64,000 bases of DNA, taken from NCBI RefSeq assembly GCF_005377625.1, contig NZ_CP040098.1, positions 1,178,001 through 1,242,000 on the forward strand, written 5' to 3'. This stretch comes from Desulfoglaeba alkanexedens ALDC. GTDB taxonomy: Bacteria > Desulfobacterota > Syntrophobacteria > Syntrophobacterales > DSM-9756. Below are positions 29,178 to 64,000 of this stretch, one piece after another. Each line of letters starts with the position of its first letter. The stretch's first letter is position 1. Position numbers and translations under genes: made by a program. The notes beneath the pieces are model-generated. The model did no database searches, had not been told where the DNA came from, and saw only the letters and a list, made by a program, of their open reading frames with translations.

Positions 29178-30566
29178 ATGTCACCGGCGTCGCTGCTTGT
29201 GGTTCTCCTGCTGCTCTCGTCATTCGCCTACTACTTGGGGCGCCGCCGGGCGTTTGCCGTAGCGGGCAAAATCGGCGGCAGCCGCCATTTGCATTCGCGC
29301 CCCACCTATTACGGCAGCCTGACGGCGCTTTCCTGTGCGGTTCCGGCCTTGCTCGTCTTCGGCGCCTGGATCGCTTTTGAAGACAACGTCATCACGAGCC
29401 TCGTTCTTTCCGATTTGCCCCAAAGCTTCAGAAATCTTCCGGAAGAACGGTTGAGTCTCGTGATCAATGACATCAGGAATCTCGTGAACGGCAATATCGT
29501 CTCCAGTCGGCCGGAGCCGAGCATCCTGACGGCCGCGGCACGGTACCGGGAGTACATGGACATCAGCCACAAGGCCTTGACGGCCTTTACGCTTTCCGCG
29601 GCAGGACTGTCCATGGTTGTCGTCGCGCGGCGCATTTCTCCGGCATTGCGTGCCAGAAACTACGTCGAACGAGCGCTTGTGGTGTTTTTGGTGGCATGTT
29701 CCACTCTTGCGATCTTCACCACCGTGGGGATCGTGTTTTCTGTGTTGTTCGAAGCCTTGCGCTTCTTCAAGGCGGTTCCTCTCAGCGAATTCCTTTTCGG
29801 CTTCCAGTGGAGCCCGCAGATCGCCATCCGCGCCGACCAAGTGGGGGCGTCGGGCGCTTTCGGGGCCGTTCCCGTATTCGTAGGGACGCTGCTCATCACA
29901 TTGATCGCCATGGTGGTGGCGGTTCCCATCGGGCTCTTTTCGGCCATCTATCTTTCCGAATATGCCCATCGGAAATTTCGCGACGTGGCAAAACCGCTCT
30001 TGGAAATCCTGGCTGGCATTCCCACCGTGGTTTACGGGTTCTTCGCCGCGTTGATGGTGGCACCTTTCGTGCGCCGAGCCGGTGAATATTTCGGGCTCGA
30101 CGTGGCTTCGGAAAGTGCCTTGGCGGCCGGTTTGGTTATGGGGATCATGATCATTCCCTTCGTCTCATCCCTTTCCGATGACGTGATCAACGCCGTCCCT
30201 CAGTCGCTCCGCGATGGTGCGTACAGCCTGGGGGCCACCCAGTCCGAAGCCATCAAGCATGTGGTACTCCCGGCGGCTCTGCCCGGTATCGTGGGCAGCA
30301 TTCTGCTCGCCGTCAGCCGAGCCATCGGAGAAACCATGATCGTTGTCATGGCTGCGGGACTTGCCGCCAACCTGACCCTCAACCCACTGAAAGCCGTGAC
30401 CACCGTGACCGTCCAGATCGTGACCCTGCTCGTCGGAGACCAGGAATTCGACAGCCCGAAAACCCTGGCCGCTTTTGCCTTGGGGCTGGTGCTCTTCCTG
30501 GTCACTTTGGTCCTGAACATCATCGCGCTTCACGTAGTGCGCCGCTACAGGGAACAGTATGAATAA
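29178..30566 (+). CDS. pstC: Phosphate ABC transporter permease PstC (long form)
   Basis: 462 residues from ATG 29178. The C-terminal ~290 residues are the standard permease core with FGAVPVFVGTLLITLIAMVV, EILAGIPTVVYGFFAALMVA and the EAA-type loop QSLRDGAYSLGATQSEAIKH followed by VVLPAALPGIVGSILLAVSR and AIGETMIVVMAAG. The first ~170 residues add two membrane segments and a periplasmic loop, as in other long PstC variants. Overlaps pstA by 8 bp. First gene of the operon, behind the Pho box at 29009. Confidence 0.93.
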   Translation: MSPASLLVVLLLLSSFAYYLGRRRAFAVAGKIGGSRHLHSRPTYYGSLTALSCAVPALLVFGAWIAFEDNVITSLVLSDLPQSFRNLPEERLSLVINDIRNLVNGNIVSSRPEPSILTAAARYREYMDISHKALTAFTLSAAGLSMVVVARRISPALRARNYVERALVVFLVACSTLAIFTTVGIVFSVLFEALRFFKAVPLSEFLFGFQWSPQIAIRADQVGASGAFGAVPVFVGTLLITLIAMVVAVPIGLFSAIYLSEYAHRKFRDVAKPLLEILAGIPTVVYGFFAALMVAPFVRRAGEYFGLDVASESALAAGLVMGIMIIPFVSSLSDDVINAVPQSLRDGAYSLGATQSEAIKHVVLPAALPGIVGSILLAVSRAIGETMIVVMAAGLAANLTLNPLKAVTTVTVQIVTLLVGDQEFDSPKTLAAFALGLVLFLVTLVLNIIALHVVRRYREQYE

Positions 30567-31860
30567 CGGCAGTGGTGAACGCCGCAACAATTCCGGTTCA
30601 CGTATCCGCACTATCGAGATTGTGAACCGAAGTCTTCCCGGACGATATCGGGCTGAGCGACGATTCCGCCTCTACGGGCTTCTGGCGGTGATCGCGAGCC
30701 TTACGTTCCTTTCGCTGCTGCTGGTCAGCATCTTTGTCAAAGGCTACACAGCGTTTTGGCAGACGGCTATTCGGTTGGACGTTACGTTCGATCCCGAGGT
30801 CTTTACGCCCAAGACGGTTCAGACAGCCGACTACCATGGGTTGGTGGCGCGGTCGTTGGGGGGGCTTTTTCCTGAAGTGGAGGGAAGGAGCGCCAGGAGA
30901 GAGCTGAATGCGCTGGTGAGTACCGGGGCGGTCTTCCAGTTGCGCCGATTGGCCATGGATAACCCCGAAGTCATCGGCCGGACCGTATCCGTGTGGGTGC
31001 CGGCTGACGACGACGTTGATATGTGGTTCAAAGGGCATTTTGACCAGGAAGGAGCAGCCGGGCGAGGGCGCCTTTCGGAACGCCAGGTGGCATGGCTCGA
31101 ACGGCTGGCCGCGGAACACAGGATCCAGAAGCGATTCAATCACAGCTTTTTCACCTCCGGTGACTCGAGAGAGCCTGAGCTCGCCGGCATTTGGGGCGCC
31201 GTGGTGGGTTCATTCTACACACTTATCGTAACGGCTGTTCTCTCCTTCCCCATCGGCGTAGCGGCGGCGATCTATTTGGAAGAATTCGCCTTCAAGAACC
31301 GATGGACCGACCTGATCGAAGTGAACATCAACAATTTGGCCGCCGTACCCTCCATCGTGTTCGGCCTCTTGGGGCTTGCCGTCTTTTTGAATTTGTTCGG
31401 GCTCCCGCGATCCGCACCCTTAGTGGGCGGCTTGGTGCTTTCCCTCATGACCCTTCCGGTGATCATCATCGCGAGCCGTGCGTCGTTGCAGTCGGTTCCT
31501 CCCTCGGTTCGCGAAGCGGCTTTGAGTGTGGGAGCTTCCAAAGTCCAAACGGTGATGCACCACGTGTTGCCTTTGGCGCTCCCAGGCATGCTTACCGGAG
31601 CCATCATCGGGATGGCGCGCGCTTTGGGTGAGACGGCGCCGCTTCTCATGATCGGGATGGTGGCGTTCATCGTGGATATTCCCCGGGGGTTCTACGATCC
31701 CGCCACCGTCTTGCCCGTCCAGATCTTTTTGTGGGCCGACAGTCCGGAACGCGCGTTCGTCGAACGGACCTCGGCGGCGATCGTTGTGCTGCTTGCCTTT
31801 TTGCTCCTCATGAATGCTGCGGCGGTCATCTTACGCAGGCGGTTCGAACGGAGGTGGTAA
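30559..31860 (+). CDS. pstA: Phosphate ABC transporter permease PstA (long form)
   Basis: 433 residues. Core permease domain in the C-terminal ~240 residues: ELAGIWGAVVGSFYTLIVTA, VNINNLAAVPSIVFGLLGLA, SVPPSVREAALSVGASKVQT, VMHHVLPLALPGMLTGAIIG and MARALGETAPLLMIG. A periplasmic domain of roughly 130 residues is inserted after the first membrane segment, as in long PstA variants. Translationally coupled to pstC. A 168-bp spacer with a long hairpin separates it from pstS. Confidence 0.93.
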   Translation: MNNGSGERRNNSGSRIRTIEIVNRSLPGRYRAERRFRLYGLLAVIASLTFLSLLLVSIFVKGYTAFWQTAIRLDVTFDPEVFTPKTVQTADYHGLVARSLGGLFPEVEGRSARRELNALVSTGAVFQLRRLAMDNPEVIGRTVSVWVPADDDVDMWFKGHFDQEGAAGRGRLSERQVAWLERLAAEHRIQKRFNHSFFTSGDSREPELAGIWGAVVGSFYTLIVTAVLSFPIGVAAAIYLEEFAFKNRWTDLIEVNINNLAAVPSIVFGLLGLAVFLNLFGLPRSAPLVGGLVLSLMTLPVIIIASRASLQSVPPSVREAALSVGASKVQTVMHHVLPLALPGMLTGAIIGMARALGETAPLLMIGMVAFIVDIPRGFYDPATVLPVQIFLWADSPERAFVERTSAAIVVLLAFLLLMNAAAVILRRRFERRW

Positions 31861-31874
31861 CTTAAAGTGTCGCG

Positions 31875-31967
31875 GATCGGCTCCTCGGCCCTCCCGCTCC
31901 GACGGGGCGATGCAACAGTGGGCCGGGGGCGGGCCGGCCCTTCGCGCGGTGTGAGGGGCCGAGCCGA
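31875..31967 (+). other. Long imperfect hairpin in the pstA-pstS spacer
   Basis: ATCGGCTCCTCGGCCCTC (from 31875) pairs with GAGGGGCCGAGCCGAT (ending near 31968) with a small bulge, enclosing another GC-rich inverted repeat near 31918-31940. There is no T-run, so it is more likely an mRNA-processing or stability element uncoupling high pstS expression from pstCA than a terminator. Confidence 0.5.
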
Positions 31968-32028
31968 TGGAGGTCGGAGAGGGTAAATCAGTTTGTGTTG
32001 AAACCAAACAAGAAAAGAAGGAGAAGAA

Positions 32029-33084
32029 ATGTTCAAGAAGACGTCTCTGTGGGTTGCTTTGGCACTTGTGTTGGGGTTGTCATTGATGGCTCAGGCTCAA
32101 TCGTCCAGGGATTACATCAGCATCGTGGGGTCGTCCACGGTCTATCCGTTTGCGACCGTTGTCGCTGAGCAGTTCGGAAAGACCACCCCCTTCAAGACCC
32201 CCAAGATCGAATCGACGGGCTCCGGCGGCGGTTTCAAACTCTTCTGCGCGGGTGTCGGGGTGGAACATCCGGACATCACCAACGCCTCCCGCCGGATGAA
32301 GAAGTCGGAATTCGATCAGTGTCAGGCGAACGGCGTAAAGGACATCGTAGAAGTCAAGATCGGCTACGACGGTATCGTGGTGGCCAATTCCAAAAGCGCG
32401 GAACCCTTCAAGTTGACCCGGAAGGATATTTTCCTCGCCTTGGCCAAACAGGTTCCCGATCCGAAGGGATCCAAGACCTTGGTTCCGAATCCTTACAAAA
32501 CGTGGAAAGACGTGAACCCCGCACTGCCGGCCAAGAAGATCGAGGTGCTCGGCCCGCCCCCCACCTCCGGTACTCGGGACGCCTTCTCCGAACTGGTGAT
32601 GGAAGCCGGCGCCAAGTCCTTTGATTGGATCGCTGCCATTAGGAACGAAGACAAGAAGCGGTTCAAGGCGATCGCCCACACCATTCGGGAAGATGGCGCC
32701 TACATCGAAGCCGGGGAGAACGACAACTTGATCGTTCAGAAACTGGTCGCCAACCCGGACGCCCTGGGGATCTTCGGGTTCAGCTTTCTCGACCAGAATA
32801 CCGACAAGATCCAGGGATCCTTCATCGAAGGCGTTCAGCCCACCTTCGAGGCGATCGCCAGCGGTGAGTATCCGGTTTCACGCCCGCTTTTCTTCTACGT
32901 GAAGAAGGCTCATGTTGACACGATTCCCGGGATTCGCGAATATCTCGCCGAATTCACCAGCGATAAGGCGTGGGGCCCCAACGGCTACCTGTCGGAAAAG
33001 GGACTGATCCCCATGCCGGACGATGAACGGGCCAAGTTCGCCGAAACCGCGAAAGAACTGCGTCCGCTGAAATCGATCGACTAA
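32029..33084 (+). CDS. pstS: Phosphate-binding periplasmic protein PstS
   Basis: 351 residues from ATG 32029 with AAGGAGAAG upstream. Sec signal peptide MFKKTSLWVALALVLGLSLM ending AQA near residue 22. PBP-like family motifs: ISIVGSSTVYPFATVVAEQF, ESTGSGGGFKLFCAGVGVEH, ITNASRRMKKSEF, KIGYDGIVVANS, PPTSGTRDAFSELVMEAGAK and FGFSFLDQN. The TGSGGG and SGTRD loops are the phosphate contacts. Unusually placed after pstA rather than leading the operon. Confidence 0.95.
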   Translation: MFKKTSLWVALALVLGLSLMAQAQSSRDYISIVGSSTVYPFATVVAEQFGKTTPFKTPKIESTGSGGGFKLFCAGVGVEHPDITNASRRMKKSEFDQCQANGVKDIVEVKIGYDGIVVANSKSAEPFKLTRKDIFLALAKQVPDPKGSKTLVPNPYKTWKDVNPALPAKKIEVLGPPPTSGTRDAFSELVMEAGAKSFDWIAAIRNEDKKRFKAIAHTIREDGAYIEAGENDNLIVQKLVANPDALGIFGFSFLDQNTDKIQGSFIEGVQPTFEAIASGEYPVSRPLFFYVKKAHVDTIPGIREYLAEFTSDKAWGPNGYLSEKGLIPMPDDERAKFAETAKELRPLKSID

Positions 33085-33224
33085 CGGATTCCGAGGCGGG
33101 AAGCCGGTGGCCGCCGCCGCCGGCTCTCCGCCGGGTTCTGTGATGCAATGTTCGCATGAGGGGCTACAGCTTTTGGAGCCCGTCGTCAGTGTAGATCGGC
33201 GGGATTGGGTCCAGAGAGGGACAA

Positions 33225-33541
33225 GGGTGCAGATCTTTTGCTTCTTGTTCCCAAGCTCCAGCTTGGGAACACATCTGTGCAGAAGCTCCAGCTTCGGTGA
33301 TGCCGTTCCCAAGCCAGAGCTTGGAACGAGGGGAAACATCACTTCGAGATCCTGGCGAGCTCCCTAGAAAGACAGCGCGTTTCAGCTGTAGCAGGAGGGA
33401 AGCTGGAGCTTCCCGGGCAGGGCGTTCCCAAGCTGGAGCTTGGGAACGAGGGGAAACGGAGCTGATGCGCTTGCTGCTTCAAGGCCATCTGGATCTACCT
33501 CAGAGGCTCACCCTGGATGTCGTTCTAAAAGATCCGCACCC
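33225..33541 (+). mobile_element. 317-bp MITE between pstS and pstB, with perfect 9-bp target duplication
   Basis: Terminal inverted repeats GGGTGCAGATCTTTT (33225-33239) and AAAAGATCCGCACCC (33527-33541) differ at one position. The element is bracketed by the exact direct repeat GAGGGACAA at 33216-33224 and 33542-33550. Inside are several TTCCCAAGCT palindromes. No transposase. Relative to the 198-bp copy at 60105-60302 it has an extra ~120-bp internal segment (about 33310-33440). The remainder of the 33085-33639 spacer has no gene. Confidence 0.9.
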
Positions 33542-33639
33542 GAGGGACAACAATTCCATCAGAAAGTACAGAGCCCATGCTCGATGCCTTAAACAAGATG
33601 CCGAAAACGAACCACCACGTCAGGGAAGAGCGGTCGCAA

Positions 33640-34467
33640 ATGGTGGGTACCTCAAGAGCCCTTAGGACGTCCAGGGAGGTTCGAGAAACGGTCGGAGAGC
33701 CGTTTCACGAGGATCCTCGGATGACGTGCCGAAACGTCGACGTGTTCTACGGAGACAAGCAGGCACTCCGAAACATCTCTTTGGACATCGGACGCAACCA
33801 GGTGATCGCGATGATCGGGCCCTCGGGCTGCGGCAAATCGACCTTCCTGCGATGCCTCAATCGCATGAACGACACCATCGAAGGGTGCCGCGTGACAGGC
33901 CGCATCACTCTTGACGGCAAAGATATCTACGACAAGAGCGTGGACGTTGTGTCGCTCCGAGCCCAAGTGGGCATGGTGTTCCAGAAGCCGAACCCGTTTC
34001 CCAAATCCATCTACGAAAACGTGGCCTACGGCCCGAAGATTCACGGCCTGGCGGAAACGCGTCGAGAACTGGACGAGATCGTCGAGACGTCCTTGCGAAA
34101 GGCTGGGCTCTGGGACGAGGTCAAAGACCGGCTCCAAGAACCGGGAACCAGCCTTTCCGGAGGCCAGCAGCAGCGCCTGTGCATCGCGCGCACCATCGCT
34201 GTTAGCCCTGAGGTGATCCTCATGGACGAACCCTGTTCCGCTCTCGATCCCATCGCCACGGCCGTCATCGAAGACCTCATCGACGAACTCAAACAACAGT
34301 ATTCCATCGCCATCGTCACCCATTCCATGCAGCAAGCGTCGAGGGTCTCCCAACGCACCGCGTTTTTTCACTTGGGCGATTTGATCGAAGTCGGACCCAC
34401 CGCTGTGATCTTTACCAATCCCCGCCACGAGCTCACGGAAGATTACATCACCGGCCGTTTCGGCTGA
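33640..34467 (+). CDS. pstB: Phosphate ABC transporter ATP-binding protein PstB
   Basis: 275 residues if started at ATG 33640, which has GGGAAGAG 9 bp upstream; in-frame ATGs at 33577 and 33598 lack ribosome sites and lie next to the MITE. Core motifs: [18 protein letters not shown], Walker [27 protein letters not shown] (PstB-specific), [47 protein letters not shown] and [20 protein letters not shown]. Family-typical C-terminus ending in DYITGRFG. Phosphate uptake ATPase, coupled to phoU 36 bp on. Confidence 0.95.
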
Positions 34468-34503
34468 TTCCTTTACTTTACCGAGAGATCCCACAGGAAA
34501 GAC

Positions 34504-35178
34504 ATGCCGCAACCGCATATCGTCCGCTCCTACGAAGAAGAACTGGAACGACTGAAAGACAAGGTTCTGGAACTGGCCGAGGAGTGCGAAGCTCAACTAC
34601 AGCGGGCGCTGTCGGCCCTCCAAGAGCACAATGAGGTTTTGGCGAGGGACATCATTCGATCTGACGAAAGGATCGACGCCCTCCAACGGGCCGTCGACGA
34701 CTTCACGGTGAGGCTACTCGCCATGCGACAACCAGTGGCCGTAGACCTTCGAAACATCGTGGCGGCCTTAAAAATGGCCGCCGATCTCGAACGTATCGCC
34801 GATTATGCAGCCAACATCGCCCGGCATGTCTCAGACCTGGGCCCGGGGGACGCCTTGCCGCCCATTTCGACGGTCATTCGGATGATCGAAACCGCCCAGA
34901 GAATGCTTTCCGATGTCCTGCAGGCCTACCGCCGGCTGGATCTGGAGAAAGCCGTTGCCGTCTGGCACGCCGACGAGGAGCTGGACCGGATGTACACCCG
35001 GCTCCTGGAGGAAGTGCGATTGGTTCTCGAAAAAGACGATGCGCGGTTTCGGGCCGCAACGGGCCTGATCTTCCTCGGACGCTGCTGCGAACGCATCGGC
35101 GATCACGTAAAAAACCTCGCCGAAAACGTTCACTTCATTGTGACCGGGGCCGCCTACGCGGGGCACCCTGCCGCGTGA
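34504..35178 (+). CDS. phoU: Phosphate-signalling complex protein PhoU
   Basis: 224 residues, two PhoU three-helix bundles. Metal-binding motif repeats: AALKMAADLERIADYAANIA (about 88-107) and LIFLGRCCERIGDHVKNLAE (about 190-209). Starts SYEEELERLKDKVLELAEEC as usual. Negative regulator linking Pst transport to the PhoR/PhoB phosphorelay. Last gene of the operon; no phoR or phoB lies in this window. Confidence 0.95.
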   Translation: MPQPHIVRSYEEELERLKDKVLELAEECEAQLQRALSALQEHNEVLARDIIRSDERIDALQRAVDDFTVRLLAMRQPVAVDLRNIVAALKMAADLERIADYAANIARHVSDLGPGDALPPISTVIRMIETAQRMLSDVLQAYRRLDLEKAVAVWHADEELDRMYTRLLEEVRLVLEKDDARFRAATGLIFLGRCCERIGDHVKNLAENVHFIVTGAAYAGHPAA

Positions 35179-55319: not shown

Positions 55320-56591
55320 TCAGCCGTCCGCCGGCCCGGGGCGGCCAACACCGTTTATCCCCCTGTCGGCGCGGCGATTCGCGTCGACTTGAGGGGAAAC
55401 CCCATCGAGGCGGCTCAGGGTCCGGAAGAAGACCAGGCCCCCGGCTGCGAGGTAGAGATGATAGGTGTAAAGGCGCCACAGGAAGAGGACGACACCTACG
55501 GAAGGCTTGGGGATAAGGTTAGAAAGGACATATAGGGTGAGCAGCTCGACACCTCCACCGCCCCCTGGAAACACGAGCAGCATGGAAAGACCGAAAGCGA
55601 ACCCTTGAAAGGCCATCAGGGCGAAGGGATCCTCTCCTGCGGTGAAGAAGGCGATCGTCAGGGGCAGCACCCCGTACCGGCAGCCCATCTGAACCATAGA
55701 CATAAAGACGACCCATCCGACAAGTCCCCGATGGTTCGAAAAAAGAAGGGATATGGCGGACCGTCCCAGACGGAGGTTCGAACGCAGTTCACGGCCGTCA
55801 GCTCTGAGTCGCCGTTGCAGACCGACCCAACGGCCGGGCAGCCTGCCCAAGCCGGCCGGGCATCCGTGGTGCCGTCGCGGCAGATACCGCCATACCAGCA
55901 AGAGGACCGTCGCTGCAGTGATTCCCCACAGAATCGGTTTCGGGAGTGCCTGCCATAAAGCGAAAACAAGAGAGCGCCAGCGGGTGCTGTCCCAAGCATC
56001 GGCGATGGCGAAAAGAAGGAGGACGCCGAACAGCAGCCAATCCACCATCATGTCCACCGCCAGCATGGAGCAGCCGATGGGGATGGCGAAGCCGAACTGC
56101 CGGAGAAGCCCGATGCGGATCGCCGCACCGCCCACACCACCCGGCGTGGCTGCGATCCCGAAATCCGCGGAAAGAACGATGGTCAAGGCATTCCGGAAAC
56201 GCAGCGCATATCCCATACCTTGGGCGATCAACCGCAAACGGGCGGCATTGGCGACCCAGGACATCGCGACCACCAAGAACAGGCACGGAAATCCCCACCA
56301 CGGGAACGCATGCAGTCGTTTCCACGTGCTCGGTTCCGACGTCGTCAAGACGATGATGCCGGCAGTGAGCGTGGCCAGGGTGGCGCCCTGCAAGGCGTAG
56401 CGCAATAGTCTTCGGGAACCGACCAGCGACCCGAGCGTTTGGGGGGAGGCTTTCCCTCCCTCGCGGCTTGCCGACCGATCCAGCGCAGAGGCCCTACCTG
56501 GCGGCCTCGGTGCGTCGCCTCGTGACTGAGCGGCTGACCGGCCCAAGCGCCGCCGTCCCGTTTCGGCCCTTGAGGAAATTTCAGGCCGCAA
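55320..56591 (-). CDS. Flippase-like membrane protein (LPG-synthase TM / UPF0104)
   Basis: 423 residues, about 8 membrane helices. The UPF0104/TIGR00374 pattern is visible: FGIAATPGGVGGAAIRIGLL near 140 and MLLVFPGGGGGVELLTLYVL near 360. Members move or accompany polyprenyl- or lipid-linked substrates. The first ~55 residues are Arg/Ser-rich and unlikely to be conserved, so the real start may be downstream. The gene overlaps the GT4 3' end by 11 bp. Third gene of the acyltransferase-GT4-flippase operon. Confidence 0.85.
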   Translation of the reverse strand: MRPEISSRAETGRRRLGRSAAQSRGDAPRPPGRASALDRSASREGGKASPQTLGSLVGSRRLLRYALQGATLATLTAGIIVLTTSEPSTWKRLHAFPWWGFPCLFLVVAMSWVANAARLRLIAQGMGYALRFRNALTIVLSADFGIAATPGGVGGAAIRIGLLRQFGFAIPIGCSMLAVDMMVDWLLFGVLLLFAIADAWDSTRWRSLVFALWQALPKPILWGITAATVLLLVWRYLPRRHHGCPAGLGRLPGRWVGLQRRLRADGRELRSNLRLGRSAISLLFSNHRGLVGWVVFMSMVQMGCRYGVLPLTIAFFTAGEDPFALMAFQGFAFGLSMLLVFPGGGGGVELLTLYVLSNLIPKPSVGVVLFLWRLYTYHLYLAAGGLVFFRTLSRLDGVSPQVDANRRADRGINGVGRPGPADG

Positions 56592-57759
56592 GCCGCTTCG
56601 TGCTCCGGCACAGTCTTCGGTAGAGTTCGGTCAGATCGGTGTAGGTCTTCCGCCAGGAAAAGTGGGCGACGATGCGGGCGCGCCGTCGCAGTCGATCTTC
56701 GGCGGTTTCGGGGATGGAAAGCAGTCGGGCTGCCGCTTCGGCGAGCGCCTCCCCGGTGGGGGCGTCGGCGAGTACGGCCGGGGTTTCACCCTCCACCGTG
56801 TCGTCGGCGCCGCCGCCTCGAATCACCAAGGTGCGGGCGCCGCAGGATTGAGCTTCTATGGATACCAGCCCGAAGGTCTCGCTGTCTCCCGGATAGACAC
56901 ACAAATCAGCCGCGGAATAGAACCTGGCCAGGTCTCTCGGCGATTCACGGTAGGGAAGCCAGGTGACGTCGTTTCGTCCTGCGGCCAACCGCTCGACCTT
57001 CCGCCGCTCTTCGCCGTCTCCCACAATGAGCAGGTGGCAGCCTGGGATCCGCCTTCGCAGTCGATCCATCATGGGAAACAGCTTCAGCACGTGCTTCTCC
57101 CGGGCGATCCTCCCGGCATAGACAATGAGTCGCCGAAACCGGGTGAGATTCAGATCCTCAAAGATTTCTTCTCGCGTCGCACACGGTCGGAACACTTCCG
57201 TATCGGTCCCCAAGGGGATGCGTACGATGCGCTGGATGCCGATGGCCTTTAACGTTTCCTTCACACGCTCGGTGGCCACCACGGTCACGTCCATGAGGTT
57301 GTGGAGCCGGGCCAGGTAGCCGTCGATGAACCATGATGTGGCATCGCGACCGATAGGACCGAGGAATTTTTCCGCCGTCCGGCCGAAGGCCCGGGGATAC
57401 TCCGAATGGTAATAGGCGATCACCGGACACCCCCTCTTTCTGGCGTACTCGACCCCCACCCAAGCTGACCGGTAGGGATCGCCGACTTCGATGAGGTCAG
57501 GGGCTTCTTCGTCCAGAATCCTCAGAATTTGCTTGCGGGAAAGGAGCATCCGGTAGCTCGTGGATCCGATCATGGGAAGAGATCGGATTTCGTGGATGCG
57601 GGATCGTCCTTCAACGCGCACCCGGTTTCGGGCTCCGGGAATGATCACCACATGTTCCATGTCTTCTCTTGTGGCCACAAAGCGAATCTTGTCGGAAACG
57701 TAACGCTTGATGCCGCCGCTCAACGGACTGTGGAATTGAACGATGTCGCAGATTTTCAT
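56581..57759 (-). CDS. Glycosyltransferase family 4
   Basis: 392 residues: MKICDIVQFHSPLSGGIKRY at the N-terminus (donor-loop GG), HSEYPRAFGRT, LIVYAGRIAREKHVLKLFPM, LLIVGDGEERRKVERL and donor site LCVYPGDSETFGLVSIEAQS with E-x7-E pattern. Cytoplasmic face of the inner membrane. Between an acyltransferase fusion and a flippase-like gene, a role in glycolipid synthesis is likely; the sugar is unknown. Confidence 0.9.
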   Translation of the reverse strand: MKICDIVQFHSPLSGGIKRYVSDKIRFVATREDMEHVVIIPGARNRVRVEGRSRIHEIRSLPMIGSTSYRMLLSRKQILRILDEEAPDLIEVGDPYRSAWVGVEYARKRGCPVIAYYHSEYPRAFGRTAEKFLGPIGRDATSWFIDGYLARLHNLMDVTVVATERVKETLKAIGIQRIVRIPLGTDTEVFRPCATREEIFEDLNLTRFRRLIVYAGRIAREKHVLKLFPMMDRLRRRIPGCHLLIVGDGEERRKVERLAAGRNDVTWLPYRESPRDLARFYSAADLCVYPGDSETFGLVSIEAQSCGARTLVIRGGGADDTVEGETPAVLADAPTGEALAEAAARLLSIPETAEDRLRRRARIVAHFSWRKTYTDLTELYRRLCRSTKRLAA

Positions 57760-57829: not shown

Positions 57830-59689
57830 TCATGCGCATCGTGCGAGGTCTTTCGCAGCGGGGAGCGTACCGTGATAGGCGTGAAAGCGGGCCAAGGCTT
57901 CCTTCCCCATATAGCGGGCCAGCCATTCGGGTTTCGCCTGAGTCAGATCCACAAGGATCAAGGCGTCCAAAACGTTGGAAAAGCGTGGATCCACGTTGAA
58001 CCCGAGAACACGTCCGCCCAATTTTAAGTATTGCTTCAACAGGATGGGTAGCCCCGTCTGGGTGGCTTCGATGTCGGAGATGAGGGCCGCCAGTTCTTCC
58101 AGGTCGGAAAGCACACAGCATACTCTGCGACTATCCCAGGGCAAAGGCGGAGCGATCCGCCTCAAGCTTTTGGCTCTGACAAAGCGGGAAAGCCGAGGAA
58201 GTGAACGGTGTGTTCTGAGGAAGGTCATCATCAGGTGCCTGGAGAGGGCGTGGTATTCGCTGTTGATGCTCACCGGGCCGAAAAGCAGATGATAGCGCGG
58301 GTGTTGGGCGACGAAGCGCCCGATGCCTTTCCACAGAAGCAGCATGGGGGAATAGCTTCTCTGGTATTCCGGACGCACAAAGGAGCGGCCCAGTTCCAGT
58401 GCGGGGTTGAGGAGGTCGAGTAGCGGCCTTTTGAAAGTGAAAAGGGTGCTGGTGTAGAGACCGTTCTTTCCGAATCGTTGCAAGATGTGGTCGGTAAGGC
58501 CCAAACGGTAAGCGCCCACCAGTTCCCGCCGCTCCCGGTTCCAAACGAAAAGATGGCGGTAATGAGGGTCGAATCCGTCGAGATCGATGGCCTTTCCGGT
58601 TCCTTCCCCCGCCTCGCGAAACGTGATTTCCCGAAGCCGACCGATTTCCTGTAACAGTCGGGGTATCCTTTGGGCTTCCGCATGAAAGACCTGATAAGGA
58701 CCGCTTTCGAGGAGAAGTCGGTCGCGACCCAACCGATCGACTTCCGAGACCAGTTCTCCCGCTTCCACCGGCCCACCGATCGGTTTCGGAACCCCGTTCC
58801 CCCGATGGGCTCTCCGCCGCGGACAGGAATCTTCAAGACGAGCATCGGCTCCGGCGGTCCGGACTCCCAAAGCGTACGTCTTGAGCCTCAGGTACTCCAT
58901 CATCCAGGCATCGCTTTTCATCGGAGCCAGTTTCTCGAAGGAAACGGTACGCCCGATGCGGACGGTGATGGGCTTGCCGCCTTTGTTGGTCACCTCGTGC
59001 GGAAGCATCACAGTGCGCAGCCGCGGATGCAGCAGCCCCATGACCTGGAAGAAGACGCTGTTGCACCCCTGAAAATACACCGGAAGGACCGCGCACTCGG
59101 CCTTACGTATCAATCGGGCCACCGTGGGGCTCCATGGGGGATCGGTGACGGTTCGTTTCCTGACGTGAAGATGAGACACCGCTCCCGCCGGAAAGACGGC
59201 TACCGTCTTGCCGTTTCTGAGCCAGCGCAGCGCTTCCCGAAGTCCGCGCACGTTCTTTTCCTTGGCGGAACCATGGCCGAACGGATCCACAGGGATGAAC
59301 AAGTCCCCTAGTTCCGGAATACAATCCACAAGGTAGTTGGCCATGATCTTGACATCAGACCTCACGCCTAACAGGAGTCGCGCCAAAATAAGGCCCTCAA
59401 TGGCACCGAAGGGGTGGTTCGCAACCACCATGAGGGGTCCGGTGGCCGGAATCCTCACCGCCTCTCGTTCGGCGATTTGAGTGGTTACGTCGAGAATGGC
59501 CAAGACTTCGTCTAAGAAGGAGAGGGGACCATCCACTCTGGAAACCCGGCGGTAGGCACGGTTCAGGCGGTTCAGGGAAAGCAGGTGTTCCAGTGAGCCG
59601 CGGAGCAAGCTGTAGAGGGCGCGCCGCCACGGGTTCGCTTCCGAGACCGTAGGGAGCGTGAAGATCTTGGGGCGATGGGAAGAACTCAT
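57830..59689 (-). CDS. PlsC-like acyltransferase fused to an OlsB/GNAT-type N-acyltransferase
   Basis: 619 residues from ATG 59689 (GGAG 10 bp upstream; a TTG precedes it). The N-terminal half (about 60-285) is a lysophospholipid acyltransferase: PLMVVANHPFGAIEGLILAR with the NHx4-5 motif, PVDPFG, AVFPAGAVSH and CAVLPVYFQG. The C-terminal half (about 320-615) is an OlsB-type GNAT acyltransferase: FREAGEGTGKAIDLDGFDPH, YRHLFVWNRERRELVGAYRL and GRSFVRPEYQRSYSPMLLLW. The pair corresponds to the two steps of ornithine- or amino-lipid synthesis. OlsF has the opposite domain order. First gene of the lipid operon. Confidence 0.88.
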   Translation of the reverse strand: MSSSHRPKIFTLPTVSEANPWRRALYSLLRGSLEHLLSLNRLNRAYRRVSRVDGPLSFLDEVLAILDVTTQIAEREAVRIPATGPLMVVANHPFGAIEGLILARLLLGVRSDVKIMANYLVDCIPELGDLFIPVDPFGHGSAKEKNVRGLREALRWLRNGKTVAVFPAGAVSHLHVRKRTVTDPPWSPTVARLIRKAECAVLPVYFQGCNSVFFQVMGLLHPRLRTVMLPHEVTNKGGKPITVRIGRTVSFEKLAPMKSDAWMMEYLRLKTYALGVRTAGADARLEDSCPRRRAHRGNGVPKPIGGPVEAGELVSEVDRLGRDRLLLESGPYQVFHAEAQRIPRLLQEIGRLREITFREAGEGTGKAIDLDGFDPHYRHLFVWNRERRELVGAYRLGLTDHILQRFGKNGLYTSTLFTFKRPLLDLLNPALELGRSFVRPEYQRSYSPMLLLWKGIGRFVAQHPRYHLLFGPVSINSEYHALSRHLMMTFLRTHRSLPRLSRFVRAKSLRRIAPPLPWDSRRVCCVLSDLEELAALISDIEATQTGLPILLKQYLKLGGRVLGFNVDPRFSNVLDALILVDLTQAKPEWLARYMGKEALARFHAYHGTLPAAKDLARCA

Positions 59690-59810
59690 CAATGGTCGAC
59701 TCCTTCATTGCGGTCCCGGGGATCGCCACGGGTTTCACACTCAAGGGACTGTCAAGGGACTGTTGCCGGCGCCTCCTCGTCACGTTCCAGAGGTTTACTC
59801 TCACCCAAAT

Positions 59811-59828
59811 GTGAAACGCGTGTGACAC
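59811..59828 (-). promoter_or_regulatory. Candidate Pho box upstream of the acyltransferase operon
   Basis: Minus-strand GTGTCAC-ACGC-GTTTCAC has the 7-4-7 layout, 122 bp before the start codon at 59689. A TAAACC about 13 bp downstream is only a poor -10, so the call is tentative. Confidence 0.45.
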
Positions 59829-59936
59829 AGGCCTTTCTTTTGGGTGAAGTGCGTAGTAGCGTTCGCATTGCGACTCTTTAATCGCCGCTGCTTCCGCACG
59901 TCTCAGCGCCAACAGGCGACCCCGGGCTACGCGCCA

Positions 59937-60098
59937 TATGCATCAAGCTAAGCGCATGACCCCACAATCAGGTGGCAACAACCTGGGAGCGCTGGCGTCC
60001 CGCCCGCAATTCTTGGGCTCCATGGCGTCCACTGCGTGCGGGACGCCCGCGCTCCCAGGGCCGAGCTCCCCGTGGCCGCTACCTTAGCTTGATGCATA
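59937..60098. mobile_element. 162-bp palindromic element with 16-bp terminal inverted repeats
   Basis: TATGCATCAAGCTAAG at 59937-59952 is the perfect reverse complement of 60083-60098. Inside is a second inverted repeat (CTGGGAGCGCTGGCGTCCCG from 59983; matching CGGGACGCCCGCGCTCCCAG ending 60058). No coding capacity. Ends 6 bp before a second, unrelated MITE. Confidence 0.8.
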
Positions 60099-60104
60099 CC
60101 GAAT

Positions 60105-60302
60105 GGGTGCAGATCTTTTGCTTCTTGTTCCCAAGCTCCAGATTGGGAACACAACTGTGCAGAAGCTCCAGCTTCGGTGAGGCCGTTCCCAAGCCAGCGC
60201 TTCGGAACGAGGGGAAACGGAGCTGATGCGCTTGCTGCTTCAAGGCCATCTGGATCTATCTCAGATGGTCACCCTGGATGTCGTTCTAAAAGATCCGCAC
60301 CC
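60105..60302 (+). mobile_element. 198-bp MITE, second full copy of the GGGTGCAGATCTTTT family
   Basis: Same terminal repeats as the copy at 33225 (GGGTGCAGATCTTTT at 60105-60119, AAAAGATCCGCACCC at 60288-60302) and near-identical flanking interior, lacking the extra internal segment. Flanks ATACCGAAT and ATATCGAAC match at 7 of 9 positions (both differences transitions), consistent with an older 9-bp target duplication. Lies just upstream of the Pho-box array of the ArsC-like gene. Confidence 0.85.
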
Positions 60303-60330
60303 ATATCGAACCACGCGCCGCAGATCGCCA

Positions 60331-60387
60331 CTGTCACACAACGGTCACTTGCCGGTGACGCGACCGTCACGACGCTTCCGCTAAAAT
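60331..60387 (+). promoter_or_regulatory. Four-repeat Pho-box array with -10 upstream of the ArsC-like gene
   Basis: CTGTCAC (60331), CGGTCAC (60342), CGGTGAC (60353) and CCGTCAC (60364) recur every 11 bp with 4-bp spacers, and TAAAAT follows at 60382-60387, 11 bp after the last repeat. This is the geometry of PhoB-activated promoters, in which Pho boxes replace the -35. Transcription would start near 60395, about 60 bp before ATG 60456. Confidence 0.7.
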
Positions 60388-60455: not shown

Positions 60456-60941
60456 ATGGCAGACGACAAGGCTCGAGTCCTTTTCATATGTGTGCACAAC
60501 AGCGGCCGAAGTCAAATGGCCGAGGCGTTTTTGAACGATTTGGGAAGCGGTCGCTTTGTGGCGGAGAGCGCCGGCTTGGAACCTCGACCGATCCATCCCC
60601 AGGTGATCACCGTCATGAAGGAACTCGGCTACGACCTCTCGCGAAATTCTTCGGACAGTGTCTTCGAATTTTTCCGCCAAGGAAGGCTATATGATTATGT
60701 CATCACCGTCTGTGAAGAAGCCGTGGAAGAGCGTTGCCCCGTCTTCCCGGGGATCGCCTGCCGACTTCGGTGGCCTTTTCCCAATCCGGAGGAGCTCGCC
60801 GGTTCCGAAGAGGAAATGGCGGCGGCTCTCCGAAAGATCCGAAACGACATTCGCCGGAAGATCATCGATTTCATCCAGGAGGTCTCTTCCGCCGACTCGG
60901 CCGTTTCACACACTTGTAACAGGCTCTCCATGACGCCTTAA
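60456..60941 (+). CDS. Low-molecular-weight phosphatase / thioredoxin-type arsenate reductase
   Basis: 161 residues from ATG 60456 (AGGAG close upstream); the frame is open further back only through the MITE and promoter. P-loop FICVHNSGRSQMAEAFLNDL contains the C-x5-R catalytic motif (C about residue 13, R about 19), followed by ESAGLEPRPIHPQVITVMKE and YVITVCEEAVEERCPVFPG with further cysteines as in ArsC. A second redox Cys is present (VCEEA), favouring arsenate reductase over plain protein tyrosine phosphatase. Arsenate enters through phosphate transport, so the Pho-box promoter makes sense. Confidence 0.88.
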   Translation: MADDKARVLFICVHNSGRSQMAEAFLNDLGSGRFVAESAGLEPRPIHPQVITVMKELGYDLSRNSSDSVFEFFRQGRLYDYVITVCEEAVEERCPVFPGIACRLRWPFPNPEELAGSEEEMAAALRKIRNDIRRKIIDFIQEVSSADSAVSHTCNRLSMTP

Positions 60942-60964: not shown

Positions 60965-61249
60965 ATGACAATGAAGGATTCGCTACGATGCCCCAGGTGC
61001 CAAAGTGAGGCTCTTTATCGCTACGGCTTCACGCCGTCGGGGAAGCAGCGGTACTTGTGTGTAGTCTGTCAACACCAGTTCGTCGAGCATCCGGCTCGCA
61101 AGCCCCCGGAAGTTCGACCGTCGTGTCCTCGATGCGGACAACCCATGCACGTTTATATGCGGCGTGGCGGCGTCGTTCGGTTTCGGTGCACCCGGTACCC
61201 GGAGTGCCGGACCTACTTGAAGATTCGAGCGGAGGTGAGTCGGTCATGA
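60965..61249 (+). CDS. Double zinc-ribbon small protein (IS1 InsA-like first ribbon)
   Basis: 94 residues (ATG 60965 or 60971). First ribbon: LRCPRCQSEALYRYGFTPSG then KQRYLCVVCQHQF, strongly like the InsA/transposase zinc-ribbon. Second ribbon: SCPRCGQPMHVYMRRGGVVR then FRCTRYPECRTYLKI, like the topoisomerase-type C-terminal zinc finger. No DDE catalytic domain follows, so this is not a working transposase; a small regulator is likelier. Coupled by ATGA to the HMA2-like gene. Confidence 0.75.
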   Translation: MTMKDSLRCPRCQSEALYRYGFTPSGKQRYLCVVCQHQFVEHPARKPPEVRPSCPRCGQPMHVYMRRGGVVRFRCTRYPECRTYLKIRAEVSRS

Positions 61250-61617
61250 GCTACTATGTGCACAGCGTACCCGGTCGTTTGCGAGTCAAGATTCCCATGG
61301 TGAGGTGCGAACCCGAGGCGGGCCGCGAAGTGGTCGAAATAGTTGAAAATATAAGGGGCGTCCGGCACGTGGAAGTCAACCCGGTGACAGGAAGCGTTGT
61401 GGTCCGCTACGATCCGAAGTGGAGTCGTTGCGAGGAAATTCTAGAGGTGCTTCAGAAGCATGGCTATTTCGATGAGCAAAAGGTCCTGCCCAACGACCCG
61501 CTCGTGGAAAATGCGGCCGTGAAGGCGAGCCGCATAATCGGGAAAACGCTTTTTGGCATGGCGGTGGAAAAAGCCTTCGAGGGAAGTGCTCTTTCCATGC
61601 TTGCGGCGTTCATTTGA
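61246..61617 (+). CDS. HMA2-like heavy-metal-associated domain protein
   Basis: 123 residues from ATG 61246. YYVHSVPGRLRVKIPMVRCE, then IRGVRHVEVNPVTGSVVVRY and EEILEVLQKHGYF, correspond to the ferredoxin-like HMA2 fold. The C-x-x-C metal site of classical HMA domains is absent. A C-terminal hydrophobic/amphipathic segment (SRIIGKTLFGMAVEKAFEGS) could associate with membrane. Such proteins often accompany P-type ATPases or DUF5132 proteins; no ATPase is near. Confidence 0.75.
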   Translation: MSYYVHSVPGRLRVKIPMVRCEPEAGREVVEIVENIRGVRHVEVNPVTGSVVVRYDPKWSRCEEILEVLQKHGYFDEQKVLPNDPLVENAAVKASRIIGKTLFGMAVEKAFEGSALSMLAAFI

Positions 61618-61736: not shown

Positions 61737-62240
61737 TCAACGAGCGTTTTTCTGACTTTCGTGTTTGTCGATGAGGACTTTGGTAAAGACCCCGAAGGCA
61801 TACCAAAACGCCGTGTACCAAGGCGGCGCGGCCACTCTCCCCCGCAAGATCTGATACGCTCCAATCACCAGCAGACTCAAGAAAGCAAGGCCGGCCACGT
61901 CCAGTTCGCCACCGGAAAAGCGATTCAGCTTCTGATTCGCTTGCAGCAGGGGCGAGACGATGCGTTTTGAGACCGGAACCCTCCGAGCGCCTTGCAAATC
62001 CAAGGCAAGGAGCCGATGGTCTCGAATGAAGGCTCCGATATCGTCCAGATTCAGCGAGGAACCTCGGAGGAGCAGGCTGGCGGCATGCAAATTGACGTGG
62101 ACTTCTTCGATCTGACCGCATTCCAAGAGTTTTTGAGCCAACCCCGGGGCCTGATGTGGATTGTCCCGCAGAGCAGGGACCTTGATGCGAAGTCGAGTGG
62201 GGGTCCAATGGGTCACGCGGCCCTGCGGCACGTCCACCAT
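61737..62240 (-). CDS. HMA2-like protein with C-terminal membrane helix
   Basis: 167 residues from ATG 62240 (GGAG upstream). N-terminal GRVTHWTPTRLRIKVPALRD and QIEEVHVNLHAASLLLRG give the same HMA2-like fold as the convergent 61246 gene. A hydrophobic helix near 115-135 (VAGLAFLSLLVIGAYQILRG) and an amphipathic tail (YTAFWYAFGVFTKVLID) follow. Probably membrane-anchored. Lies 234 bp downstream of the DUF5132 gene on the same strand. Confidence 0.7.
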   Translation of the reverse strand: MVDVPQGRVTHWTPTRLRIKVPALRDNPHQAPGLAQKLLECGQIEEVHVNLHAASLLLRGSSLNLDDIGAFIRDHRLLALDLQGARRVPVSKRIVSPLLQANQKLNRFSGGELDVAGLAFLSLLVIGAYQILRGRVAAPPWYTAFWYAFGVFTKVLIDKHESQKNAR

Positions 62241-62474
62241 GCTTAACTCCTTACATTTCAGCTCTAATGTAACGCCCCGCCGATCCCCGATCCCGCATCA
62301 GACGGTCTCGACCAAATGGATACACCCGGGCTTCCCAGGGACTCTGCCGAAGGACGGCAGAGCCCGACGTCAGCGCACACTCCACGCCTTCCGTCTGCTC
62401 CTCAAGGGCGAAACAGATCCCGATCCGTTCCTGCTCCCCAAACTACTGGATAAGGCGAGACCTTCATCCAGTGA

Positions 62475-62732
62475 TCAGGCTTCCGTGGCTTCCATCGGGG
62501 GAGCGTTGATCTCAGCCTTGGCTTCCGCCACCAGATCCTCGACGCTTTCGCCTACTTCGGCAACAGCCTGCCGGCCCTTTCGATAGACCAAGATGCCACC
62601 CTTGATGGCCGTCTTAGCCACCGGCTTCAAAACAGCCGCCACCGCGGGGATGACTATCGGGGCAAGAATCACCGCACCGATCCCGACCATCATTCCTGTG
62701 CTCGCGCTGAAACCATTGCTGAAAAGCTTCAT
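62475..62732 (-). CDS. DUF5132-like small membrane protein
   Basis: 85 residues from ATG 62732 with GAAGGAGAAG upstream. GMMVGIGAVILAPIVIPAVA forms one Gly/Ala-rich hydrophobic helix (about 13-35), followed by LKPVAKTAIKGGILVYRKGR and an acidic tail (VGESVEDLVAEAKAEI). This matches the DUF5132 pattern as I know it; such proteins co-occur with HMA2-like proteins as here. Function unknown, possibly a membrane-remodelling or compartment protein. Confidence 0.75.
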   Translation of the reverse strand: MKLFSNGFSASTGMMVGIGAVILAPIVIPAVAAVLKPVAKTAIKGGILVYRKGRQAVAEVGESVEDLVAEAKAEINAPPMEATEA

Positions 62733-63242
62733 GTCTTCTCCTTCTTCGCACTCCGCCCTTCGCTCGAAGGCCTCGTGCCTTGGGACTTTATATAATCGCT
62801 CTAACGAGACTCTTGCGAGGGCCGGGTGACTCAGCCGGCTGCTTTGTTCCCACCATTTGCTCGGCCCCAAACGCCAAATCAATCGGCTTCCGACACACTC
62901 GAACCCGCAAGATTTGTGAATTACATATCATGGCGCAATGGTAGTGAGCAATGGGGAAAATCATGTCTTGCCTACGGATAAACATTTATTTTTACCAACC
63001 CATGTTACACGCGCACCGCACGGCGGTGACAATACGGTTACGCTCGCCTCGCGGGGCGGTCAGGGTTTGCGGGTTCAGGGATTGAGGAAGCGTAAGGTTC
63101 TGAAAAATGACTCCCGTTTACTCTTTCCTAATCCGGCGGACAGGAAAACAGCAAACGTTTTCTTGACTTAAGCGGTGGAAGCGGCGGGGCGGCCCGGATC
63201 AGCGGAGCCGCTGTAGGGGAAGCGGTCTTCGACTCTGGAGCA
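62733..63242. other. Non-coding spacer, nothing firm
   Basis: 510 bp between the DUF5132 and GT4 genes without a supported gene. A CGGTGAC-AATA-CGGTTAC pair at 63024-63041 looks like a Pho box but has no -10 or downstream gene. Confidence 0.5.
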
Positions 63243-64000
63243 TCAGACCGCTTCCGGAAGGACGATACCATCTGCCGTTTGGCCACGGATACCACGGTAG
63301 AGGTCCCACGTCATTTCGAACGCTTTTCTGAAAGAACGGTATTCCATGGCCTTCCGGGCCGCCTCGGCCATGGTCTTGCGGCGATCCGGATCCTGCAAAA
63401 GTTTCCTCGCAGCTTGATAGAAGGCCTGTTCATCGTCGGCCTTAACGATGAAGCCGGTTTTTCGGTCGATAACGTTTTCCTGGGGACCGCCGGCGTCGGT
63501 CACGATGGCGGGAAGTCCTGAGGCTTGAGCTTCCAGCACCACGTTGCCGAAGGTGTCCGTTGTACTGGGAAAGGCGAAGATGTGGCAGGAAGCATAGGCC
63601 GCGGCCAGTTCAGCCCCGGAGAGGTATCCTGTGAAAACGGCGGGCATGCCTTCAAGTTCGGCTTTCATTTCGTTCAGGTAGGGTCCGTCTCCCACCACAA
63701 CCAGTGACAGGTTTTGAATGGTTCGGTTCAGCCTTTTGAAGACGCGGACCAGGAGATCCAGGTCCTTTTCCTTGGAGACTCGGCCGACGTACAGGAGCCT
63801 GATACGGTCTCGCAGTCCGTAGCGGCGCTCGAAGTCCTCCGAAAACCGGGAAGGATGGAAGTGCTCGATGTCGACCCCTCGCGTGTAGGTCTGAATTTTT
63901 TCCGCCGCTATTCCCTTGCGGACCAGTTCATCCCCCGTGGCCCGAGACGGAACGTAGACCGTGTCCATCTGTTGGTAGTACCAGAGAACGAATTTCCACA
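63243..64000 (-). CDS. Glycosyltransferase family 4, C-terminal part (5' end outside window)
   Basis: About 252 residues visible. The frame continues past 63968 to the window edge as WKFVLWYYQQMDTVYVPSRA, so the real start is outside. Donor-domain motifs: RGVDIEHFHPSRFSEDFERR, RLLYVGRVSKEKDLDLLVRV, SLVVVGDGPYLNEMK and HIFAFPSTTDTFGNVVLEAQ, SGLPAIVTDAGGPQENV. Resembles mannosyl/glucosyltransferases acting on diacylglycerol or phosphatidylinositol-type acceptors, but the acceptor domain is not seen. Confidence 0.9.
   Translation of the reverse strand, partial: WKFVLWYYQQMDTVYVPSRATGDELVRKGIAAEKIQTYTRGVDIEHFHPSRFSEDFERRYGLRDRIRLLYVGRVSKEKDLDLLVRVFKRLNRTIQNLSLVVVGDGPYLNEMKAELEGMPAVFTGYLSGAELAAAYASCHIFAFPSTTDTFGNVVLEAQASGLPAIVTDAGGPQENVIDRKTGFIVKADDEQAFYQAARKLLQDPDRRKTMAEAARKAMEYRSFRKAFEMTWDLYRGIRGQTADGIVLPEAV

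Follow-up and report, generated by a model that had tools for sequence, protein, structure and literature searches.

A putative PhoB-controlled promoter in front of an ArsC-like gene of Desulfoglaeba alkanexedens

The segment at 60331-60387 is very likely a promoter controlled by PhoB, placed in front of an ArsC-like gene. It lies in a window of 64,000 nucleotides (1178001-1242000 of a genome of 3,365,583 bp), to which the positions in Table 1 refer. The full reading comprises a PhoB-activated promoter, a second array serving lipid genes and an ArsC-like protein that would reduce arsenate; we give the whole of it a probability of roughly 0.6. It starts from what we observed: a rare and partly conserved array, the regulator genes, a linkage kept among orthologues and the redox residues of the protein. 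In this scheme, PhoR and PhoB, whose genes lie at 2.98 Mb, would yield PhoB~P under phosphate starvation. PhoB~P would occupy the four direct repeats as a pair of dimers in tandem, in place of a -35 element, and recruit sigma-70 RNA polymerase to TAAAAT, which would turn on the ArsC-like gene and, probably along with it, the zinc-ribbon and heavy-metal-associated (HMA) genes. The second array would drive the divergent genes for ornithine lipid synthesis (OlsF) and lipid glycosylation, and the ArsC-like protein would most likely reduce the arsenate let in by the induced Pst system. PhoB binding, the transcriptional response, the operon structure and the enzymatic activity are predictions from sequence.

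Table 1. Features of the window discussed in the text.
Feature	Position	Strand	Remarks
Unit 1, CTGTCAC	60331-60337	+	read in sequence
Unit 2, CGGTCAC	60342-60348	+	read in sequence
Unit 3, CGGTGAC	60353-60359	+	read in sequence
Unit 4, CCGTCAC	60364-60370	+	read in sequence
Four-unit PhoB-type direct-repeat array (two Pho boxes in tandem)	60331..60370	+	sequence and scoring
-10-like hexamer TAAAAT, 11 bp past the last unit	60382..60387	+	sequence
ArsC-like protein, HNSGRS-type LMW-PTP/arsenate-reductase family	60456..60941	+	Cys12, Arg18, Cys86 and Cys94 present
Zinc-ribbon protein	60965..61249	+	23 bp downstream of the ArsC-like gene
HMA domain protein	61246..61617	+	start overlaps the zinc-ribbon stop (ATGA)
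Repeat elements (two) of the divergent intergenic region	59935-60098 and 60105-60307		genome copies
Three-unit PhoB-type array GTGTCAC, GTTTCAC, GGGTGAG	59800..59828	-	p = 0.002, weaker; upstream of the OlsF gene
OlsF-like bifunctional ornithine lipid synthase (phosphorus-free lipid)	57830..59692	-	NF052615, 394 bits, E = 1e-117
GT4 glycosyltransferase, like GlcNAc-phosphatidylglycerol synthase	56581..57759	-	242 bits, cut-off of 480 not reached
LPG-synthase-TM/flippase-like membrane protein	55320..56591	-	
868-aa gene, 3' part within the window	63243..63998	-	GT4 C-terminus
Second phosphate-uptake operon pstC-pstA-pstS-pstB-phoU	29178..35178	+	weak array upstream, p = 0.022

The repeat array and its regulator

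The original prediction described four 7-mers in an 11-bp register, followed 11 bp later by TAAAAT, and the window sequence bore this out to the base. The spacer between the unit CCGTCAC and the hexamer is GACGCTTCCGC (11 bp), and the start codon of the ArsC-like gene is at 60456. No TTGACA-like -35 element was found 17 bp upstream of TAAAAT, where the array sits instead. We scored the array with a PhoB half-site consensus modelled on the E. coli Pho box. The four units reached 27.0, against a maximum of 23.0 in 60 Markov shuffles of the window and of 25.4 in 24 simulated genomes of 3.37 Mb searched on both strands. The three-unit pattern YBGTSAC-N4-YBGTSAC-N4-YBGTSAC matched without mismatch only at the array (in two overlapping frames) in the whole genome, a result that bears on uniqueness more than on significance because the pattern was devised post hoc, with the array already known. 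The region upstream of phoB was among the genome-wide matches with three mismatches.

The divergent intergenic region also holds two repeat elements. One occurs three times in the genome, once close to the pst operon at 2.992 Mb; the other has dozens of interspersed copies (60+) and resembles MITE or REP elements. The array does not belong to the interspersed repeat, which stops at about 60307, 24 bp before the first unit.

The genome encodes a phoB-phoR-pstB-phoU cluster with a convergent pstSCA at 2.98-2.99 Mb. The best model score of this PhoB (267.5) is lower than the NCBI equivalog cut-off (296.2), and phoR and pstB-phoU are adjacent. Its recognition helix, RTVDTHIRRLRQKL, is near-identical to that of E. 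coli PhoB, RTVDVHIRRLRKAL, with few residues differing in the alignment, and the best solved-structure matches of its DNA-binding domain are E. coli PhoB structures (1qqi, 1gxp and 3t72). The phoB promoter carries an array of five units (TTTTCAT, AGGTCAC, CCGTGAC, CCTTCGT and CCGACAC) followed by 11 bp and TACACT (p = 0.001), with the spacing from last unit to hexamer that is seen before the ArsC-like gene. Unexpectedly, there is no array at the main pstS promoter (p = 0.81), and that of the pst operon in the window, 25 kb from the ArsC-like gene, is weak.

Conservation and genomic linkage

Conservation of the array in relatives, offered in the original prediction as a check, was partial. The orthologue in the same-family genome G004, which adjoins olsF, is preceded by TCGTGAC, ATGTCAC, ACGTCAC and CTGTCAC in register (p = 0.001), and a three-unit array at p <= 0.012 was present in 5 of 18 relatives of the HNS[AG]RS subtype and in 1 of 11 ordinary-subtype controls. 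Yet no recognisable array was found upstream of the other 13 orthologues, some of which are inside pst operons. About half of the 18 relatives have their orthologue linked to pst-phoU, phoB or olsF. The gene order is pstSCAB-phoU-arsC in G034 and pstSCAB-phoU-arsC-olsF in G037; the orthologue is divergent from pst2 in G050 and G040, and adjoins phoB in G060 and G062. The pst2 operon of G050:C229 (L051) has a TGNSCRS-type ArsC on one side and an HNS-type ArsC on the other. Among 80 named loci from many phyla, approximately 16 have Pst or PhoU genes within 6 kb, a count made without formal background on contigs many of which end early, and 5 of the 78 testable upstream regions scored at p <= 0.01. 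We also considered PhoU linkage as a peculiarity of the HNS subtype, but the difference from the ordinary ArsC subtype was not significant (4/18 versus 4/51, p = 0.19).

The array statistics, the PhoB/PhoR pair, the geometry of the phoB promoter, the same-family array and the orthologue linkage argue strongly for the PhoB promoter architecture put forward in the original prediction. Two other explanations of the repeats have to be weighed. The region is repeat-rich and the third unit, CGGTGAC, deviates, as might be expected of a chance run in GC-rich intergenic DNA; this is highly improbable, as none of the 24 simulated genomes gave an equal score and the four-unit array is kept in G004. The array may also be bound by another OmpR-family regulator responding to a different signal. 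Members of this family have direct-repeat sites of 10-11 bp in common, a second PhoB-like regulator encoded at 3.325 Mb scores 202 bits against the PhoB model, and the main pstS promoter lacks an array. We nevertheless find this unlikely: the half-site sequence, the 4-bp spacers and the distance to the -10 hexamer are as expected for PhoB, and arrays of this kind turn up again at phoB, at orthologues that adjoin phoB and near OlsF.

The ArsC-like protein and its neighbours

The zinc-ribbon and HMA genes are probably on the transcript of the ArsC-like gene. They also adjoin ArsC orthologues in Nitrospirae MAGs (L117 and L148), on the opposite strand. Convergent to this putative operon are HMA_2 and DUF5132 genes (window 61737-62882, minus strand), beyond which lies a P-type-ATPase-like gene (L050 13340-15499).

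The divergent OlsF gene and the two lipid genes next to it look, from their domain matches, like membrane-lipid remodelling genes. The OlsF-like protein matches positions 19-569 of the 570 of NF052615, with a score lower than the curated cut-off of 620 bits. In Desulfovibrio alaskensis, mutants of OlsF and of Agt, a glycolipid transferase, are less fit mainly at low phosphate (PMC5193443). The OlsF start had the top array score among 91 ranked gene starts, a ranking from which, owing to crude gene calls, the starts of the ArsC-like gene and of phoB (scores of 21.7 and 18.9) were missing. The 868-aa gene, whose N-terminal LHVHSKFS motif we read as PHP-like, has two Pho-like pairs upstream, outside the window. 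The OlsF and lipid genes with their own array, which were absent from the original prediction, are a further sign of a phosphate-starvation locus, and we read the locus as a putative small phosphate-starvation island.

The ArsC-like protein has the LMW-PTP/ArsC fold and is a distant relative, scoring 92.6 bits against the thioredoxin-ArsC equivalog TIGR02691 (cut-off 174.3). Its HNS[AG]RS subtype is distinct from the TGNSCRS subtype. All 98 subtype members compared have the P-loop Cys12 and Arg18 and the redox Cys86 and Cys94. The general acid of the FxDP motif is Asp in 94 of the 98 and is replaced by Asn110 in the window protein (codon AAT, window 60783-60785); Asn is found in only 3 of the 97 other members (L092, L093 and L107).

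Thioredoxin-coupled ArsC usually has an arsenite efflux partner, although this is not strictly defining. Searches of four families in the genome, rated 97% complete, revealed no Acr3, ArsB or aquaglyceroporin (MIP channel); hence, within the scope of these searches, a detoxification route of reduction followed by export is incomplete. Permeases of the ArsP_1 family are present. There is a second ArsC, of the TGNSCRS type, at 946.5 kb (G000:C1:946532-946933; L049 5491-5970), which adjoins rhodanese-like and cation-efflux-like genes in this genome devoid of acr3.

These observations raise the alternative that the promoter is controlled by PhoB but the ArsC-like protein is a low-molecular-weight phosphatase, acting on a protein or a small metabolite in a phosphate-starvation or lipid-remodelling programme. 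The absence of Acr3, ArsB and MIP channels fits this, as do the adjoining OlsF gene and the solved structures of the fold, some of which are tyrosine or arginine phosphatases. Moreover, acr3 is nearby in only 2 of 18 orthologues of the HNS subtype, against 21 of 51 in the TGNSCRS subtype (p = 0.022). On the other hand, the invariant Cys86 and Cys94 are not needed by plain phosphatases of this fold, and Asn110 would weaken phosphatase chemistry as well. In addition, an ordinary TGNSCRS-type ArsC stands beside phoU in four genomes, as expected if Pst uptake and arsenate reduction are linked. We consider the phosphatase role rather unlikely. Since the protein retains the redox triad and ArsC of either subtype is found repeatedly next to pst/phoU, arsenate reduction is our best guess from the sequence. 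Hence, where the original prediction tied an arsenate reductase to phosphate starvation, the PhoB half is well supported, while the arsenate half, though plausible, is on weaker ground, given the score below the cut-off, Asn110 and a genome without Acr3, ArsB or aquaglyceroporin. A broader proposal is more tentative: the HNS[AG]RS ArsC proteins might form a widespread Pho-regulon family, wired to PhoB and not to ArsR and lacking a dedicated arsenite exporter. Such enzymes would act as phosphatases during phosphate starvation or, alternatively, scavenge arsenate in coupling with some other sink, e.g. sulfide.

Comparison with known systems

Arsenate enters cells via phosphate transporters, and exposure is therefore greatest in cells whose Pst system is induced by phosphate shortage. 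If our reading is true, PhoB would switch on an ArsC-type gene directly, and detoxification would be set by a nutrient signal instead of an ArsR arsenic sensor. As the pst-phoU-arsC and arsC-olsF neighbourhoods recur, the question can be tested across many phyla.

E. coli-type Pho boxes consist of 7-bp repeats with 4-bp spacers, approximately 10 bp before the -10 element. The array resembles such promoters in its TGTCA core, 4-bp spacers, 11-bp register, position in place of the -35 element and distance of about 11 bp to the -10 hexamer. It differs from them in having four units, GC-rich variants (CGGTCAC and CCGTCAC), spacers that are GC-rich and not AT-rich, and an ArsC-like target. The protein shares with thioredoxin-type ArsC (PDB 1jf8 and 1jl3) and with the LMW phosphatase family protein 8p5n the fold, the P-loop Cys-X5-Arg and two more redox cysteines; unlike them, it has an HNSGRS loop instead of TGNSCRS and Asn for the catalytic Asp, and belongs to a separate subfamily.

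We found no report of an arsenate reductase gene preceded by a Pho box in the literature searched, which covered a minority of subscription journals. The nearest case is in Halomonas sp. HAL1, where PhoB binds a Pho box at the arsenite oxidase genes aioBA and controls them (PMC4563254). There, as predicted here, the phosphate two-component system acts on an arsenic-metabolism gene via a Pho box, but the target is an oxidase with a single antisense 18-mer, whereas here four units precede a reductase-like gene. Arsenic and phosphate genes are also linked, by genome position or by regulation, in arsenic islands accompanied by pst genes (PMC3834237) and in Agrobacterium, where ArsR controls pstS1 and phoB1 (PMC7965956). 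Those islands hold aio or ars operons, whereas we found neither an ars operon nor an efflux gene in this case, where the Pho array forms the link. In SAR11, low phosphate goes with a higher frequency of LMWPc_ArsC (PMC6426599). This protein is also an ArsC of the LMW-PTP fold without ArsB that is favoured by phosphate scarcity, but it is paired with an aquaporin, whereas the genome studied here has no member of the MIP family. By analogy with these systems, a Pho array in front of an ArsC-type gene would be a natural extension of the known links between phosphate and arsenic.
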